This document shows, piece after piece, positions 55,203 through 64,000 of a stretch of DNA of 64,000 nt (its first letter is position 1; each line of letters begins with the position of its first letter). Under the pieces are notes generated by a model. The model was not told where the DNA came from. It saw only the letters and a list, made by a program, of their open reading frames with translations, and ran no database searches. This DNA comes from Diprion similis (taxonomy: Eukaryota; Arthropoda; Insecta; Hymenoptera; Diprionidae): contig NC_060106.1 of the NCBI RefSeq assembly GCF_021155765.1, forward strand, positions 8,997,501 through 9,061,500, given 5' to 3'. The position numbers and the translations under genes were made by a program.

Positions 55203-55214
55203 TCAATTGACCCT

Positions 55215-55525
55215 CAGAAACGCAGAAAACATATCAAAAAGTGCATGGAATTAACAAAACAGGAATTACGAAGGAAATCTTCCGCTTTTCGGTTGCATTT
55301 TTGGATACGTCGCTGGTAGGGTATTCGGACTGTACGCGAAATCGATTTCTCCCGCAAAATTACGTCGATATAGTGCATCAAAAAACTAATTCGAGCATTT
55401 TTCATAACCGCCAAAATTTTCACTAAAAATTCGCAGGGGTTCTCCTTACTTGTTTTGATGAGTAAAGAAACTTCTGTCTCAAAATCGATTGGTATGACCC
55501 TTACCAGACGTATTGGACACTGAGC
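55215..55525 (+). repeat. isolated, strongly diverged 304-bp-satellite monomer
   Basis: Aligns across its length to the array monomer: AATCGATTTCTCCCGCAAAA, ATTACGTCGATATAGTGC, AAAATTTTCACTAAAAATTC, GCAGGGGTTCTCCTTAC and AAAATCGATTGGTATGAC are all diverged forms of monomer phrases in the right order. It is separated from the next monomer by about 450-500 bp of unrelated sequence. Confidence 0.8.
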
Positions 55526-56040
55526 CACGCAAAAAACAATATGAAAAAGATAAGACAGCAGAGAAAATAGGAAGAAAACACATAGAGATTTATTTGTTTA
55601 TTTATTTGAATTCAAGTGACATAAAACAATACAGTGTTACATATATGGTATCCTGCGGTGGTGTATTGCACCAGTGCGCGGTGTGGAACTCAAAATACAT
55701 GTACTTACAAACTACATTAATTACCATCTCATATATGTACTGCTTTTCATCTGCTGCTTAGGGTAAGATGAGATGTACATTTTTGCCTTAACGTATTGGT
55801 CAGCTTTAGTATGGAATGTTCAATCACTTTTCTATATTTTTTCTCGAATTCTTTAGATTTTATTTGGCAACTTGTTCACGTACAATATACTGACACCTGA
55901 ACATATGTGCTAAGTTGATTGCGTAATAAATTGACTGGAACAGGAAAAGAAACGTAGCTTTGTAACTATGTACTTGTTATTTCCTTCCCCAGTATTTTAA
56001 GAATTTGTTACGAGTTTGATTTGTTTTAGCCGGTCTTTTT
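55526..56040. other. non-satellite insertion between edge monomers
   Basis: AT-rich sequence without similarity to the monomer. It separates the isolated edge copy from the main array. I see no terminal repeats defining it as a mobile element. Confidence 0.45.
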
Positions 56041-56310
56041 AGTCCGATTCTCAGGGTATATTCGGCAAACGTTGAATCGACTCTTTTCGCAAAATTGCAT
56101 CGATGTGGAGAATCACATAAGTGTTTGCGGCACTTTTCGAATTCGTCAAGATTTTCACTAGAAATTTTTTTTGTCTCGGAATCGATTTTTATGACCATCT
56201 CTAGAGTAATTCGACCCCAGGAACTCAGAGAACAGATCGAAAAGAGCGTAGGACCAGCAGCGGAGAAATGACGACGGAAATCATAAGTTTTTCGGCTGTA
56301 ACTTGACAGG
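56041..56310 (+). repeat. diverged, shortened edge monomer of the 304-bp satellite
   Basis: Matches the consensus from the CGCAAAATT phrase to CGGCTGTAAC but is about 39 bp short, lacking the GCAAAGGGGTTAGCC block and part of the T-run that follows it. Divergence is intermediate between the isolated copy at 55.2 kb and the array proper. Confidence 0.85.
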
Positions 56311-59300
56311 TGTTGCTCGCAGCGTATTGGGACTGCGTTTAATCGATTTCTCTCGCAAAATTACGTCGGAATAGTGCCCTACAGAATTATTTGCAGCACT
56401 TTTCAAACTCGTCGAAATTTTTACCAAAAATGCAAAGGGGTTAGCCTTGGATTTTTTTTGGCCGAAGAATCTTTTGTCTGGGAATCGATTCGTATGACGT
56501 TTTCTAGACTGATTCGACGCCCAGGAACTCAGTAAACACATCAAAAATAGAGTAGGACCAGCAGCGGAGAAATGACGACGAAAATCATGATATTTTCGGC
56601 TGTAACTTTACAGGTGTTGCTCGCAGCGTATTGGGACTGCGTTTAATCGATTTCTCTCGCAAAATTACGTCGGAATAGTGCCCTACAGAAATAATTGCAG
56701 CACTTTTCAAAGTCGTCGAAATTTTCACCAAAAATGCAAAGGGGTTAGCCTTGGATTTTTTTTGGCCGAAAAATCTTTTGTCTGGGAATCGATTCGTATG
56801 ACGTTTTCTAGACTAATTCGACGCCCAGGAACTCAGTAAACACATCAAAAATAGTGTAGGACCAGCAGCGGAGAAATGACGACGAAAATCATGAGTTTTT
56901 CGGCTGTAACTTTACAGGTGTTGCTCGCAGCGTATTGGGACTGCGTTTAATCGATTTCTCTCGCAAAATTACGTCGGAATAGTGCCCTACAGAATTAATT
57001 GCAGCACTTTTCAAAGTCGTCGAAATTTTCACCAAAAATGCAAAGGGGTTAGCCTTCGATTTTTTTTGGCCGAAAAATCTTTTGTCTGGGAATCGATTCG
57101 TATGACGTTTCCTAGACTAATTCGACGCCCAGGAACTCAGTAAACACATCAAAAATAGCGTAGGACCAGCAGCGGAGAAATGACGACGAAAATCATGAGT
57201 TTTTCGGCTGTAACTTTACAGGTGTTGCTCGCAGCGTATTGGGACTGCGTTTCATCGATTTCTCTCGCAAAATTACGTCGGAATAGTGCCCTACAGAATT
57301 AATTGCAGCACTTTTCAAAGTCGTCGAAATTTTCACCAAAAATGCAAAGGGGTTAGCCTTCGATTTTTTTTGGCCGAAAAATCTTTTGTCTGGAAATCGA
57401 TTCGTATGACGTTTCCTAGACTAATTCGACACCCAGGAACTCAGTAAACACATCAAAAATAGCGTAGGACCAGCAGCGGAGAAATGACGACGAAAATCAT
57501 GAGTTTTCCGGCTGTATCTTTACAGGTGTTGCTCGCAGCGTATTGGGACTGCGTTTAATCGATTTCTCTCGCAAAATTACGTCGGAATAGTGCCCTACAG
57601 AATTAATTGCAGCACTTTTCAAAGTCGTCGAAATTTTCACCAAAAATGCAAAGGGGTTAGCCTTCGATTTTTTTTGGCCGAAAAATCTTTTGTCTGGAAA
57701 TCGATTCGTATGACGTTTCCTAGACTAATTCGACGCCCAGGAACTCAGTAAACACATCAAAAATAGCGTAGGACCAGCAGCGGAGAAATGACGACGAAAA
57801 TCATGAGTTTTTCGGCTGTAACTTTACAGGTGTTGCTCGCAGCGTATTGGGACTGCGTTTAATCGATTTCTCTCGCAAAATTACGTCGGAATAGTGCCCT
57901 ACAGAATTAATTGCAGCACTTTTCAAAGTCGTCGAAATTTTCACCAAAAATGCAAAGGGGTTAGCCTTTGATTTTTTTTGGCCAAAAAATCTTTTGTCTG
58001 GGAATCGATTAGTATGACGTTTCCTAGACTAATTCGACGCCCAGGAACTCAGTAAACACATCAAAAATAGCATAGGACCAGCAGCGGAGAAATGACGACG
58101 AAAATCATGAGTTTTTCGGCTGTAACTTTACAGGTGTTGCTCGCAGCGTATTGGGACTGCGTTCAATCGATTTCTCTCGCAAAATTACGTCGGAATAGTG
58201 CCCTACAGAATTAATTGCAGCACTTTTCAAAGTCGTCAAAATTTTCATCAAAAATGCAAAGGGGTAAGCCTTCGATTTTTTTTGGCCGAAAAATCTTTTG
58301 TCTGGGAATCGATTCGTATGACGTTTCCTAGACTAATTCGACGCCCAGGAACTCAGTAAACACATCAAAAATAGCGTAGGACCAGCAGCGAAGAAATGAC
58401 GACGAAAATCATGAGTTTTTCGGCTGTAACTTTACAGGTGTTGCTTGCAGCGTATTGGGACTGCGTTTCATCGATTTCTCACGCAAAATTACGTCGGAAT
58501 AGTGCCCTACAGAAACAATTGCAGCACTTTTCAAAGTCGTCGAAATTTTCACCAAAAATGCAAAGGGGTTAGCCTTGGATTTTTTTTTGCCGAAAAATCT
58601 TTTGTCTGGGAATCGATTCGCATGACGTTTTCTAGACTAATTCGACGCCCAGGAACTCAGTAAACACATCAAAAATAGTGTAGGACCAGCAGCGGAGAAA
58701 TGACGACAAAAATCATGAGTTTTTCGGCTGTAACTTTACAGGTGTTGCTCGCAGCGTATTGGGACTGCGTTTAATCGATTTCTCTTGCAAAATTACGTCG
58801 GAATAGTGCCCTACAGAATTAATTGCAGCACTTTTCAAAGTCGTCGAAATTTTCACCAAAAATGCAAAGGGGTTAGCCTTCGATTTTGTTTGGCCGAAAA
58901 ATCTTTTGTCTGGGAATCGATTCGTATGACGTTTCCTAGACTAATTCGACGCCCAGGAACTCAGTAAACACATCAAAAATAGCGTAGGACCAGCAGCGGA
59001 GAAATGACGACGAAAATCATGAGTTTTTCGGCTGTAACTTTACAGGTGTTGCTCGCAGCGTATTGGGACTGCGTTTAATCGATTTCTCTCGCAAAATTAC
59101 GTCGGAATAGTGCCCTACAGAATTAATTGCAGCACTTTTCAAAGTCGTCGAAATTTTCACCAAAAATGCAAAGGGGTTAGCCTTCGATTTTTTTTGGCCG
59201 AAAAATCTTTTGTCTGGGAATCGATTCGTATGACGTTTCCTAGACTAATTCGACGCCCAGGAACTCAGTAAACACATCAAAAATAGCGTAGGACCAGCAG

Positions 59301-62300
59301 CGGAGAAATGACGACGAAAATCATGAGTTTTTCGGCTGTAACTTTACAGGTGTTGCTCGCAGCGTATTGGGACTGCGTTTAATCGATTTCTCTCGCAAAA
59401 TTACGTCGGAATAGTGCCCTACAGAATTAATTGCAGCACTTTTCAAAGTCGTCGAAATTTTCACCAAAAATGCAAAGGGGTTAGCCTTGGATTTTTTTTG
59501 GCCGAAAAATCTTTTGTCTGGGAATCGATTCGCATGACGTTTTCTAGACTAATTCGACGCCCAGGAACTCAGTAAACACATCAAAAATAGTGTAGGACCA
59601 GCAGCGGAGAAATGACGACGAAAATCATGAGTTTTTCGGCTGTAACTTTACAGGTGTTGCTCGCAGCGTATTGGGACTGCGTTTAATCGATTTCTCTCGC
59701 AAAATTACGTCGGAATAGTGCCCTACAGAATTAATTGCAGCACTTTTCAAAGTCGTCGAAATTTTCACCAAAAATGCAAAGGGGTTAGCCTTCGATTTTT
59801 TTTGGCCGAAAAATCTTTTGACTGGGAATCGATCCGTATGACGTTTTCTAGACTAATTCGACGCCCAGGAACTCAGTCAACGCATCAAAAATAGTGTAGG
59901 ACCAGCAGCGGAGAAATGACGACGAAAATCATGAGTTTTTCGGCTGTAACTTTACAGGTGTTGCTCGCAGCGTATTGGGACTGCGTTTGATCGATTTCTC
60001 TCGCAAAATTACGTCGGAATAGTGCCCTACAGAATTAATTGCAGCACTTTTCAAAGTCGTCGAAATTTTCACCAAAAATGCAAAGGGGTTAGCCTTCGAT
60101 TTTTTTTGGCCGAAAAATCTTTTGACTGGGAATCGATCCGTATGACGTTTTCTAGACTAATTCGACGCCCAGGAACTCAGTAAACGCATCAAAGATAGTG
60201 TAGGACCAGCAGCGGAGAAATGACGACGAAAATCATGAGTTTTTCGGCTGTAACTTTACAGGTGTTGCTCGCAGCGTATTGGGACTGCGTTTAATCGATT
60301 TCTCTCGCAAAATTACGTCGGAATAGTGCCCTACAGAATTAATTGCAGCACTTTTCAAAGTCGTTGAAATTTTCACCAAAAATGCAAAGGGGTTAGCCTT
60401 CGATTTTTTTTGGCCGAAAATGCTTTTGTCTGGGAATCGATTCGTATGACGTTTTCTAGACTAATTCGACGCCCAGGAACTCAGTAAACGCATCAAAAAT
60501 AGTGTAGGACCAGCAGCGGAGAAATGACGACGAAAATCATGAGTTTTTCGGCTGTAACTTTACAGGTGTTGCTCGCAGCGTATTGGGACTGCGTTTAATC
60601 GATTTCTCTCGCAAAATTACGTCGAAATAGTGCCCTACAGAATTAATTGCAGCACTTTTCAAAGTCGTCGAAATTTTCACCAAAAATGCAAAGGGGTTAG
60701 CCTTCGATTTTTTTTGGCCGAAAAATCTTTTGACTGGGAATCGATCCGTATGACGTTTTCTAGACTAATTCGACGCCCAGGAACTCAGTAAACGCATCAA
60801 AATAAGTGTAGGACCAGCAGCGGAGAAATGACGACGAAAATCATGAGTTTTTCGACTGTAACTTTACAGGTGTTGCTCGCAGCGTATTGGGACTGCGTTT
60901 AATCGATTTCTCTCGCAAAATTACGTCGGAATAGTGCCCTACAGAATTAATTGCAGCACTTTTCAAAGTCGTCGAAATTTTCGCCAAAAATGCAAAGGGG
61001 TTAGCCTTCGATTTTTTTTGGCCGAAAAATCTTTTGTCTGGGAATCGATTCGTATGACGTTTCCTAGACTAATTCGACGCCCAGGAACTCAGTAAACACA
61101 TCAAAAATAGCGTAGGACCAGCAGCGGAGAAATGACGACGAAAATCATGAGTTTTTCGGCTGTAACTTTACAGGTGTTGCTCGCAGCGTATTGGGACTGC
61201 GTTTAATCGATTTCTCTCGCAAAATTACGTCGGAATAGTGCCCTACAGAATTAATTGCAGCACTTTTCAAAGTCGTTGAAATTTTCACCAAAAATGCAAA
61301 GGGGTTAGCCTTCGATTTTTTTTGGCCGAAAATGCTTTTGTCTGGGAATCGATTCGTATGACGTTTTCTAGACTAATTCGACGCCCAGGAACTCAGTAAA
61401 CGCATCAAAAATAGTGTAGGACCAGCAGCGGAGAAATGACGACGAAAATCATGAGTTTTTCGGCTGTAACTTTACAGGTGTTGCTCGCAGCGTATTGGGA
61501 CTGCGTTTAATCGATTTCTCTCGCAAAATTACGTCGAAATAGTGCCCTACAGAATTAATTGCAGCACTTTTCAAAGTCGTCGAAATTTTCACCAAAAATG
61601 CAAAGGGGTTAGCCTTCGATTTTTTTTGGCCGAAAAATCTTTCGACTGGGAATCGATCCGTATGACGTTTTCTAGACTAATTCGACGCCCAGGAACTCAG
61701 TAAACACATCAAAAATAGTGTAGGACCAGCAGCGGAGAAATGACGACGAATATCATGAGTTTTTCGGCTGTAACTTTACAGGTGTTGCTCGCAGCGTATT
61801 GGGACTGCGTTTAATCGATTTCTCTCGCAAAATTACGTCGGAATAGTGCCCTACAGAATTAATTGCAGCACTTTTCAAAGTCGTCGAAATTTTCACCAAA
61901 AATGCAAAGGGGTTAGCCTTCGATTTTTTTTGGCCGAAAAATCTTTTGTCTGGAAATCGATTCGTATGACGTTTCCTAGACTAATTCGACGCCCAGGAAC
62001 TCAGTAAACACATCAAAAATAGCGTAGGACCAGCAGCGGAGAAATGACGACGAAAATCATGAGTTTTTCGGCTGTATCTTTACAGGTGTTGCTCGCAGCG
62101 TATTGGGACGGCGTTTAATCGATTTCTCTCGCAAAATTACGTCGGAATAGTGCCCTACAGAATTAATTGCAGCACTTTTCAAAGTCGTCGAAATTTTCAC
62201 CAAAAATGCAAAGGGGTTAGCCTTCGATTTTTTTTGGCCGAAAAATCTTTTGTCTGGAAATCGATTCGTATGACGTTTCCTAGACTAATTCGACGCCCAG

Positions 62301-64000
62301 GAACTCAGTAAACACATCAAAAATAGCGTAGGACCAGCAGCGGAGAAATGACGACGAAAATCATGAGTTTTTCGGCTGTAACTTTACAGGTGTTGCTCGC
62401 AGCGTATTGGGACTGCGTTTAATCGATTTCTCTCGCAAAATTACGTCGGAATAGTGCCCTACAGAATTAATTGCAGCACTTTTCAAAGTCGTCGAAATTT
62501 TCACCAAAAATGCAAAGGGGTTAGCCTTCGATTTTTTTTGGCCGAAAAATCTTTTGACTGGGAATCGATCCGTATGACGTTTTCTAGACTAATTCGACGC
62601 CCAGGAACTCAGTCAACGCATCAAAAATAGTGTAGGACCAGCAGCGGAGAAATGACGACGAAAATCATGAGTTTTTCGGCTGTAACTTTACAGGTGTTGC
62701 TCGCAGCGTATTGGGACTGCGTTTAATCGATTTCTCTCGCAAAATTACGTCGGAATAGTGCCCTACAGAATTAATTGCAGCACTTTTCAAAGTCGTTGAA
62801 ATTTTCACCAAAAATGCAAAGGGGTTAGCCTTCGATTTTTTTTGGCCGAAAATGCTTTTGTCTGGGAATCGATTCGTCTGACGTTTTCTAGACTAATTCG
62901 ACGCCCAGGAACTCAGTAAACGCATCAAAAATAGTGTAGGACCAGCAGCGGAGAAATGACGACGAAAATCATGAGTTTTTCGGCTGTAACTTTACAGGTG
63001 TTGCTCGCAGCGTATTGGGACTGCGTTTAATCGATTTCTCTCGCAAAATTACGTCGGAATAGTGCCCTACAGAATTAATTGCAGCACTTTTCAAAGTCGT
63101 CGAAATTTTCACCAAAAATGCAAAGGGGTTAGCCTTCGATTTTTTTTGGCCGAAAAATCTTTCGACTGGGAATCGATCCGTATGACGTTTTCTAGACTAA
63201 TTCGACGCCCAGGAACTCAGTAAACGCATCAAAAATAGTGTAGGACCAGCAGCGGAGAAATGACGACGAAAATCATGAGTTTTTCGGCTGTAACTTTACA
63301 GGTGTTGCTCGCAGCGTATTGGGACTGCGTTTAATCGATTTCTCTCGCAAAATTACGTCGGAATAGTGCCCTACAGAATTAATTGCAGCACTTTTCAAAG
63401 TCGTCGAAATTTTCACCAAAAATGCAAAGGGGTTAGCCTTCGATTTTTTTTGGCCGAAAAATCTTTTGTCTGGGAATCGATTCATATGACGTTTCCTAGA
63501 CTAATTCGACGCCCAGGAACTCAGTAAACACATCAAACATAGCGTAGGACCAGCAGCGGAGAAATGACGACGAAAATCATGAGTTTTTCGGCTGTAACTT
63601 TACAGGTGTTGCTTGCAGCGTATTGGGACTGCGTTTAATCGAATTCTCACGCAAAATTACGTCGGAATAGTGCCCTACAGAAACAATTGCAGCACTTTTC
63701 AAAGTCGTCGAAATTTTCACCAAAAATGCAAAGGGGTTAGCCTTGGATTTTTTTTGGCCGAAAAATCTTTTGTCTGGGAATCGATTCGTATGACGTTTCC
63801 TAGACTAATTCGACGCCCAGGAACTCAGTAAACACATCAAAAATAGTGTAGGACCAGCAGCGGAGAAATGACGACGAAAATCATGAGTTTTTCGGCTGTA
63901 ACTTTACAGGTGTTGCTCGCAGCGTATTGGGACTGCGTTTAATCGATTTCTCTCGCAAAATTACGTCGGAATAGTGCCCTACAGAAATAATTGCAGCACT
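56311..64000 (+). repeat. 304-bp tandem satellite array (25 full monomers plus a partial)
   Basis: The anchor word TGTTGCTCGC (TGTTGCTTGC in two monomers) recurs at 56311, 56615, 56919, 57223 and so on to 63911. Every spacing is exactly 304 bp, with no insertion or deletion over 25 complete monomers; the array continues past the window. Monomers differ only by substitutions at a limited set of sites (for example AATAGCG/AATAGTG, GTCTGGG/GACTGGG/GTCTGGA, TTCGAT/TTGGAT, AACACATC/AACGCATC). A typical monomer carries 21 CpG dinucleotides, high for this AT-rich neighbourhood. A few monomers have 60-73-codon open frames on either strand, but these are not kept across monomers, so they are not genes. 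The array may be pericentromeric or another heterochromatic block; the sequence alone does not say. Confidence 0.97.

Follow-up and report, generated by a model that had tools for sequence, protein, structure and literature searches.

A 304-bp satellite array of Diprion similis and its probable origin from an old dispersed repeat

The right-hand end of the 64,000-bp stretch of Diprion similis DNA analysed here (the window; G000:C2:8997501-9061500, on contig C2 of a 60-contig assembly totalling 269,008,206 bases) is occupied by a homogenised array of a 304-bp satellite unit, which is preceded on its 5′ side by a dispersed sequence termed X. The array probably grew from an old dispersed repeat of the form monomer-X-monomer, with arrays of this family growing 3′ of X and homogenising both within and between sites. 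The relevant parts of the window are as follows:

55205..55578, plus strand: decayed monomer of the satellite, detached from the array; identity to the best consensus 74%, with 8 insertions or deletions (indels) over 371 aligned bases
55579..56047, plus strand: X, a dispersed sequence of ~420-470 bp at the 5′ edge of the array, recognised from genome matches and edge comparison
56048..56168, plus strand: decayed transitional monomer in which a deletion spans the hinge, from alignment
56169..64000, plus strand: homogenised 304-bp satellite array, from Tandem Repeats Finder (TRF) and anchor spacing, running on past the window to ~112,750 (window coordinate)
56440..56484, plus strand: hinge in the first of the anchored units, with its T8 run at 56452-56459; it recurs every 304 bp and contains 9 of the 13 distinct indels of homogenised units as well as the 8 bp by which the 304-bp and 312-bp classes differ

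X lies directly 5′ of the array, in the window and just outside the part that had been noted at first. It has at least 41 matches in the genome including itself, the others being 66-80% identical and several of them partial; 40 candidates were scored for this table, from which the X sequences of the other sampled arrays are absent. With X and short flanks as the query, 15 of the other 43 matches listed cross the junction between decayed monomer and X.

Eight arrays, located by monomer matches and by an exact 26-mer of the unit, were partly read: three on C1, two on C11 and one each on C2, C5 and C10, a non-random sample. When the edges are taken in satellite orientation, X is found at 7 of the 8 sampled 5′ edges, always in one orientation and never in the opposite one (scores 117-343 vs. 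shuffle maxima of 38-44), and at none of the 5 sampled 3′ edges (best scores 38-49, shuffle maxima 36-49; Fisher p = 0.0047). The match covers only 144-202 bp at the C1 2.448 Mb and C11 2.56 Mb edges, and the gaps from the end of X to recognisable satellite measure 26, 951, 18, 3, 16, 261 and 266 bp. The exception is the 5′ edge on C5, where a retrotransposon is joined directly to the undecayed array at phase 82. This element (L039:6260-10000, C5:2268260-2272000) is GC-rich, of the non-long-terminal-repeat (non-LTR) type and antisense to the satellite, and its frames of 592 and at least 677 amino acids contain zinc knuckle, endonuclease and reverse transcriptase domains. Satellite matches resume beyond it; it is thus inserted within its array, and the count for X at true edges would therefore be 7 of 7. 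The value of 7 of 8 is kept as the unfiltered count; the five 3′ edges are likewise unfiltered.

X also occurs at other sites, again next to the monomer. Eight further X loci, chosen non-randomly from the match tables, were read over 1.1-1.6 kb each; within these stretches none contains homogenised units, and all eight have a decayed monomer on one or both sides. BLAST detects the monomer on both sides at L044, L045, L047, L049, L050 and L051, and on the left only at L046 (C6:4040201-4041600), where X is interrupted by ~670 bp of other sequence. At L048 BLAST detects no monomer, but alignment gives scores of 99 on the right (shuffle maximum 29) and, weakly, 43 on the left (shuffle maximum 39). 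Past the 3′ monomer, at least 130 bp of non-satellite DNA follow at L044, L045, L047 and L051. Over the 12 loci inspected, the left monomer breaks off close to one shared GAAAA; the right monomer picks up again near GTTTTT in most of them. The aligned X copies are 409-469 bp long in 11 of 12 cases (the twelfth has 274 bp) and are 62-77% alike over 64 of their 66 pairs, the other two having been dropped for fewer than 150 aligned bases.

The composite was also considered as an LTR-like element of the TRIM type (terminal-repeat retrotransposon in miniature) with the monomer as its terminal repeat. This was rejected because the outer ends differ between copies and because the right monomers of L045 and L047 pass the junction phase and exceed one unit. 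Read by eye, the junctions show outer ends that vary; no terminal inverted repeats were recognised here, neither these nor target-site duplications nor a transposase having been the object of a dedicated search.

The array itself is highly regular. TRF reports a single array at 56169-64000 with a period of 304, 25.8 copies, 97% matches and 0% indels, and a 25-base anchor starting at 56311 recurs at 56311+304n for n = 0 to 25 with at most one mismatch per occurrence. The self-identity is 97-98% at shifts of 304k (k = 1-12), as against at most 32.5% at any other shift in the range 20-1599, and the periodicity is therefore far above chance. The 25 full units of the window differ at 51 variable columns by 117 substitutions and no indel. 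The exact spacing described in the earlier note is thus confirmed by both the anchor search and TRF; its statement that no indel survives applies to the window part and fails for the whole array. Tracked past the window through six adjacent 10-kb stretches, the array ends at ~112,750. Its forward part (56353-108943) yielded 172 measured units, 170 of them of 304 bp and two of 303 bp (anchors 88273 and 90096), which share one change, T8 to T7; among the forward units there are 145 distinct substitutions, 69 of them seen once, and this single distinct indel. An inverted block near the 3′ end (108903-112539), with 12 anchors and 11 spacings all of 304 bp, was excluded from these counts and is followed by ~200 bp in the forward orientation. 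The unit length on C2 is near-constant, not perfect.

Units of an array resemble one another more than they resemble those of other arrays. Among the 304-bp units, the nearest relative lies in the unit's own array for 170 of 170 on C2, 43 of 43 at C1 2.448 Mb, 71 of 76 on C10 (2 ties), 42 of 48 on C5 (2 ties), 21 of 34 at C11 5.19 Mb (13 ties) and 41 of 52 at C11 2.56 Mb (10 ties), so that some units on C10, C11 and C5 tie with or prefer another array. The C2 units are 2.3% apart on average, and adjacent units are scarcely closer to each other than distant ones (mean differences 6.65 vs. 7.06), which indicates that mixing is array-wide. A higher-order repeat in C2 was not accepted, the minimum lag mean of 6.44 at lag 47 being borderline against a 5% shuffle bound of 6.47.

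The 304-class arrays on C2, C5, C10 and C11 are alike, their interiors differing by 4.3 (C10 vs. C11 5.19 Mb) to 13.7 (C2 vs. C5) of 304 positions, whereas X at the edges of the C2, C10 and C11 arrays is old and has diverged, the copies of the C10 and C11 5.19 Mb arrays being 66.7% identical. Had each array grown from its local copy without exchange, the interiors would be expected to lie about as far apart as the edges. Since they are much more alike, exchange between sites presumably took place after the arrays were founded.

Under the proposed history, a monomer-X-monomer repeat would have been scattered through the genome long ago, and at some sites the tandem monomer 3′ of X would have been amplified, possibly by unequal exchange or rolling-circle reinsertion. 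Later, interlocus conversion or the insertion of circles may have exchanged monomers between the pre-existing sites, and copies lying outside arrays would have decayed, picking up indels. Growth on the 3′ side might reflect a suitable tandem junction being present only there, or some help from X itself. The near-constant length could arise if homogenisation preferentially drops indel-bearing units, with 304 bp itself not being required. The removal of indels might proceed through loop-biased mismatch repair in the heteroduplex or through weak selection on the repeat phase, and an array could lock another length when a hinge indel spreads, as in the 312-bp class described below. A stronger version, in which X is a cis-acting, one-sided start for tandem amplification and homogenisation serves as a proof-reader of length while substitutions drift, is put forward only speculatively and is hardly likely as it stands.

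The origin of satellites, and the constancy of their unit length despite sequence drift, are old questions. Here a single assembly, in which contigs of 11-28 Mb were encountered, contains a presumed seed, decayed controls and long arrays of two or more length classes, so that the direction of growth and the removal of indels can be counted. If the polarity of X holds genome-wide, it would provide a testable rule for the sites where arrays arise.

An alternative explanation, possible if rather doubtful, is that X is a site-specific mobile element, perhaps a short antisense retroelement, which inserts at one satellite phase, so that the array edges are simply where insertions survive. It would account for the junction lying near one point in the 12 loci inspected, and the TTTATTTATTT tract with which X opens when read in satellite orientation would be the tail of such an element read antisense; the differing outer monomer extents and the partial genome matches are also in line with it. 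However, X was present at 5′ edges but missing from all five sampled 3′ edges and from the one interior gap tested. The uniform length of all but one of the 12 aligned copies does not suggest variable truncation, and the sole retrotransposon found within an array, that on C5, sits at a different phase, 82.

The satellite is abundant and comes in more than one length. The genome contains 6625 occurrences (3620 + 3005; reversed control 0) of the exact 26-mer, and hinge patterns with T8, T7 and T9 occur 9860, 22 and 52 times; at 304 bp each, these 9934 exact matches amount to ~1.1% of the assembly. With long head-to-tail non-coding arrays, concerted evolution and high copy number, the sequence is satellite DNA. 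Five arrays with both ends read span ~14 to 57 kb. Spacings of 250-350 bp gave 573 units. Of these, 544 depart from the consensus of their own array by 8% at most, and their lengths are 304 bp (423 units), 312 (89), 309 (10), 303 (7), 313 (6), 305 (6), 311 (2) and 301 (1).

Two of the C1 arrays form a 312-bp class, which in aligned consensuses differs from the 304-bp class by a single 8-bp block in the variable stretch beside the T run. The third C1 array keeps 304 bp despite a consensus 41 substitutions away from that of the window, and another C1 array (C1:3903353-3945910) measures 42,557 bp from pattern positions alone, i.e., 140 units minus 3 bases. The unit length is thus not fixed genome-wide. 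On C11, near 10.58 Mb (C11:10565642-10614954), the T9 form recurs in part at 1217-bp steps, every fourth unit, suggesting a four-unit higher-order repeat in that array; amplification can therefore carry a length variant along. At one locus on C1 (L030:2114-3426, C1:2927114-2928426) a 304-class and a 312-class stretch lie on either side of 1.3 kb of non-satellite DNA; this is the one interior gap tested, and no X was detected in it.

The indel share, taken as indels among all changes, was compared between homogenised (core) units, with each distinct change counted once per array, and decayed monomers beside X, with all changes counted. The core units of the eight arrays show 13 indels and 941 substitutions (1.4%), and ten decayed stretches show 38 and 704 (5.1%; 13/954 vs. 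38/742, Fisher p = 9e-6). The decayed stretches were cut at BLAST limits, and shorter or fragmented pieces, together with the window's transitional unit with its large deletion, were left out. The X copies contain 723 indels and 6882 substitutions over the 64 pairs, and 47 and 497 over five non-overlapping pairs (47/544). A control for the indel rate based on a mariner element provided a single match only.

Against the decayed rate, the absence of indels in the window alone is marginal (0/55, P = 0.056), while the full C2 array (1/146) gives P = 0.004 and the eight arrays (13/954) P = 6e-10, or 0.014 and 4e-7, respectively, after correction for multiple hits. The hinge (45 bp; 53 bp in the 312-bp class) holds 9 of the 13 core indels and 144 of the 941 substitutions (Fisher p = 2e-5, post hoc), so that 4 indels and 797 substitutions fall outside it, where the deficit is strongest. 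On present evidence the indel deficit of homogenised units is real and of moderate size.

Several points weigh against the proposed history and the indel deficit that goes with it. Only eight arrays and eight further X copies were read, none of them randomly chosen. The outer ends of the composite vary between copies, and it may not have dispersed as a single unit; the stretches read at L046, L048, L049 and L050 end too early to exclude an array further on. L048 (C13:5784351-5785450) lies ~13-15 kb 5′ of satellite pattern matches on the same strand of C13, and its X copy possibly marks the 5′ edge of a further array beyond those read. As to the indels, distinct changes were counted in the core and all changes in the decayed copies, which at ~26% divergence are partly saturated. 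The limits of the hinge were drawn after the indel positions had been seen, and the comparison of diverged units inside arrays (17 indels and 586 substitutions, 17/603) with the core (13/954) is weak at p = 0.057. Finally, all unit lengths are those of the assembled sequence.

A strict functional constraint on unit length, through two phased nucleosomes per unit or a phased binding protein, is unlikely. The depletion of indels in homogenised units and their concentration in the hinge are what it would lead one to expect, and the AA/TT/TA power near 10 bp was matched by only 3 of 200 shuffles. However, the 312-bp class exists, the T9 variant has spread in a repeating pattern on C11, and the 304-bp unit contains no internal dimer, a 152-bp division having been rejected because 127 of 200 shuffles scored at least as well. 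Substitutions avoid no 30-bp block in C2, C5 or C10 (p = 0.38, 0.13 and 0.39), and on C5 one block shows excess variation (p = 0.008). A run of 34 bp that is invariant in five consensuses (p = 0.0055) was set aside as evidence for a protected block, because several arrays had been found by the exact 26-mer within that run. Of the constraint on monomer length suggested in the earlier note, the shortage of indels in core units remains, and a strict 304 bp is contradicted by the 312-bp arrays, T9 and the other lengths.

Simple recent amplification followed by neutral drift, with the lack of indels due to chance or to a low indel input, is quite improbable. The low divergence of the C2 units and the result for the window alone are compatible with it, but the full C2 array and the eight arrays together are not. 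The earlier note had offered very recent homogenisation as an alternative; homogenisation is borne out by the grouping of all 170 C2 units with their own array, and recency alone is insufficient, because substitutions built up and indels hardly did, leaving the core with an indel share below that of the decayed copies. Erasure of indels by assembly or polishing is very improbable, since the same assembly retains T7, T8 and T9 variants, units of 303, 305, 309 and 313 bp and the 69 substitutions private to single C2 units.

The closest parallel found for a satellite seeded by a dispersed element is Tetris of Drosophila virilis (PMC4079207). There, satellite-like arrays derive from a repeat (TIR-220) within a dispersed element and, as on C2, adjacent units are no more alike than distant ones. 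As in Tetris, the monomer also occurs here in a dispersed element outside arrays: 8 of 8 further X copies carry it, four of them with non-satellite DNA beyond it within the stretch read. Tetris differs in being a transposon of the foldback type, whose terminal inverted repeats have no recognised counterpart here, and the present arrays grow to one side of X.

Arrays of satellite DNA scattered through euchromatin, and their carriage by mobile elements, are described in the review PMC10048060. Like the 1.688 satellite of D. melanogaster and the Tribolium satellites in that account, the present arrays are spread along chromosome arms near genes; the likeness is one of organisation, and the 1.688 arrays mostly have up to six repeats, in contrast to the ~14 to 57 kb found here. 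The Helitron-linked satellites of Crassostrea gigas, also treated there, are a further case of tandem repeats that spread together with an element that is or once was mobile, but no Helitron ends were recognised here, no dedicated tool having been used. Centromere repeat length is not conserved over 282 species surveyed (PMC4053949). None of the papers listed in literature searches was recognised as a description of this monomer, six k-mers of the unit returned no matching papers, and a 25-mer had no match in viral contigs.

No coding or RNA-structural role was found for the array. By test the unit is non-coding, 304 not being a multiple of 3, and the only frames of at least 95 amino acids reaching into the homogenised array are an edge frame (55977-56360) and one at 56281-56607 (108 amino acids). 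The window has no Rfam match at gathering scores, and the fold of one unit is unconvincing (z of 0.45 and -1.67 on its two strands); a ribozyme-bearing satellite was rejected on these grounds. A CENP-B box is absent within 2 mismatches from four of five consensuses, that of C2 included, and one 2-mismatch match occurs in the C1 2.925 Mb consensus.

The array is interstitial, as shown by gene fragments in the left part of the window, and lies ~9 kb from recognised coding sequence. A domain scan covering 20 of the 46 open frames of the window found a RING domain (PF14570), which we take to be of the CNOT4 type, at 16.9 kb, a LON-substrate domain at 31.4 kb on the minus strand, an amino-acid transporter at 35 kb on the minus strand and phosphoglucomutase exons at 43.3-47.4 kb. 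Elsewhere, C1 starts with TTAGG telomere repeats, which speak against a dipteran genome, and a ~98-bp tandem duplication (L027:8877-9065) lies 0.8 kb past the 3′ edge of a C1 array.

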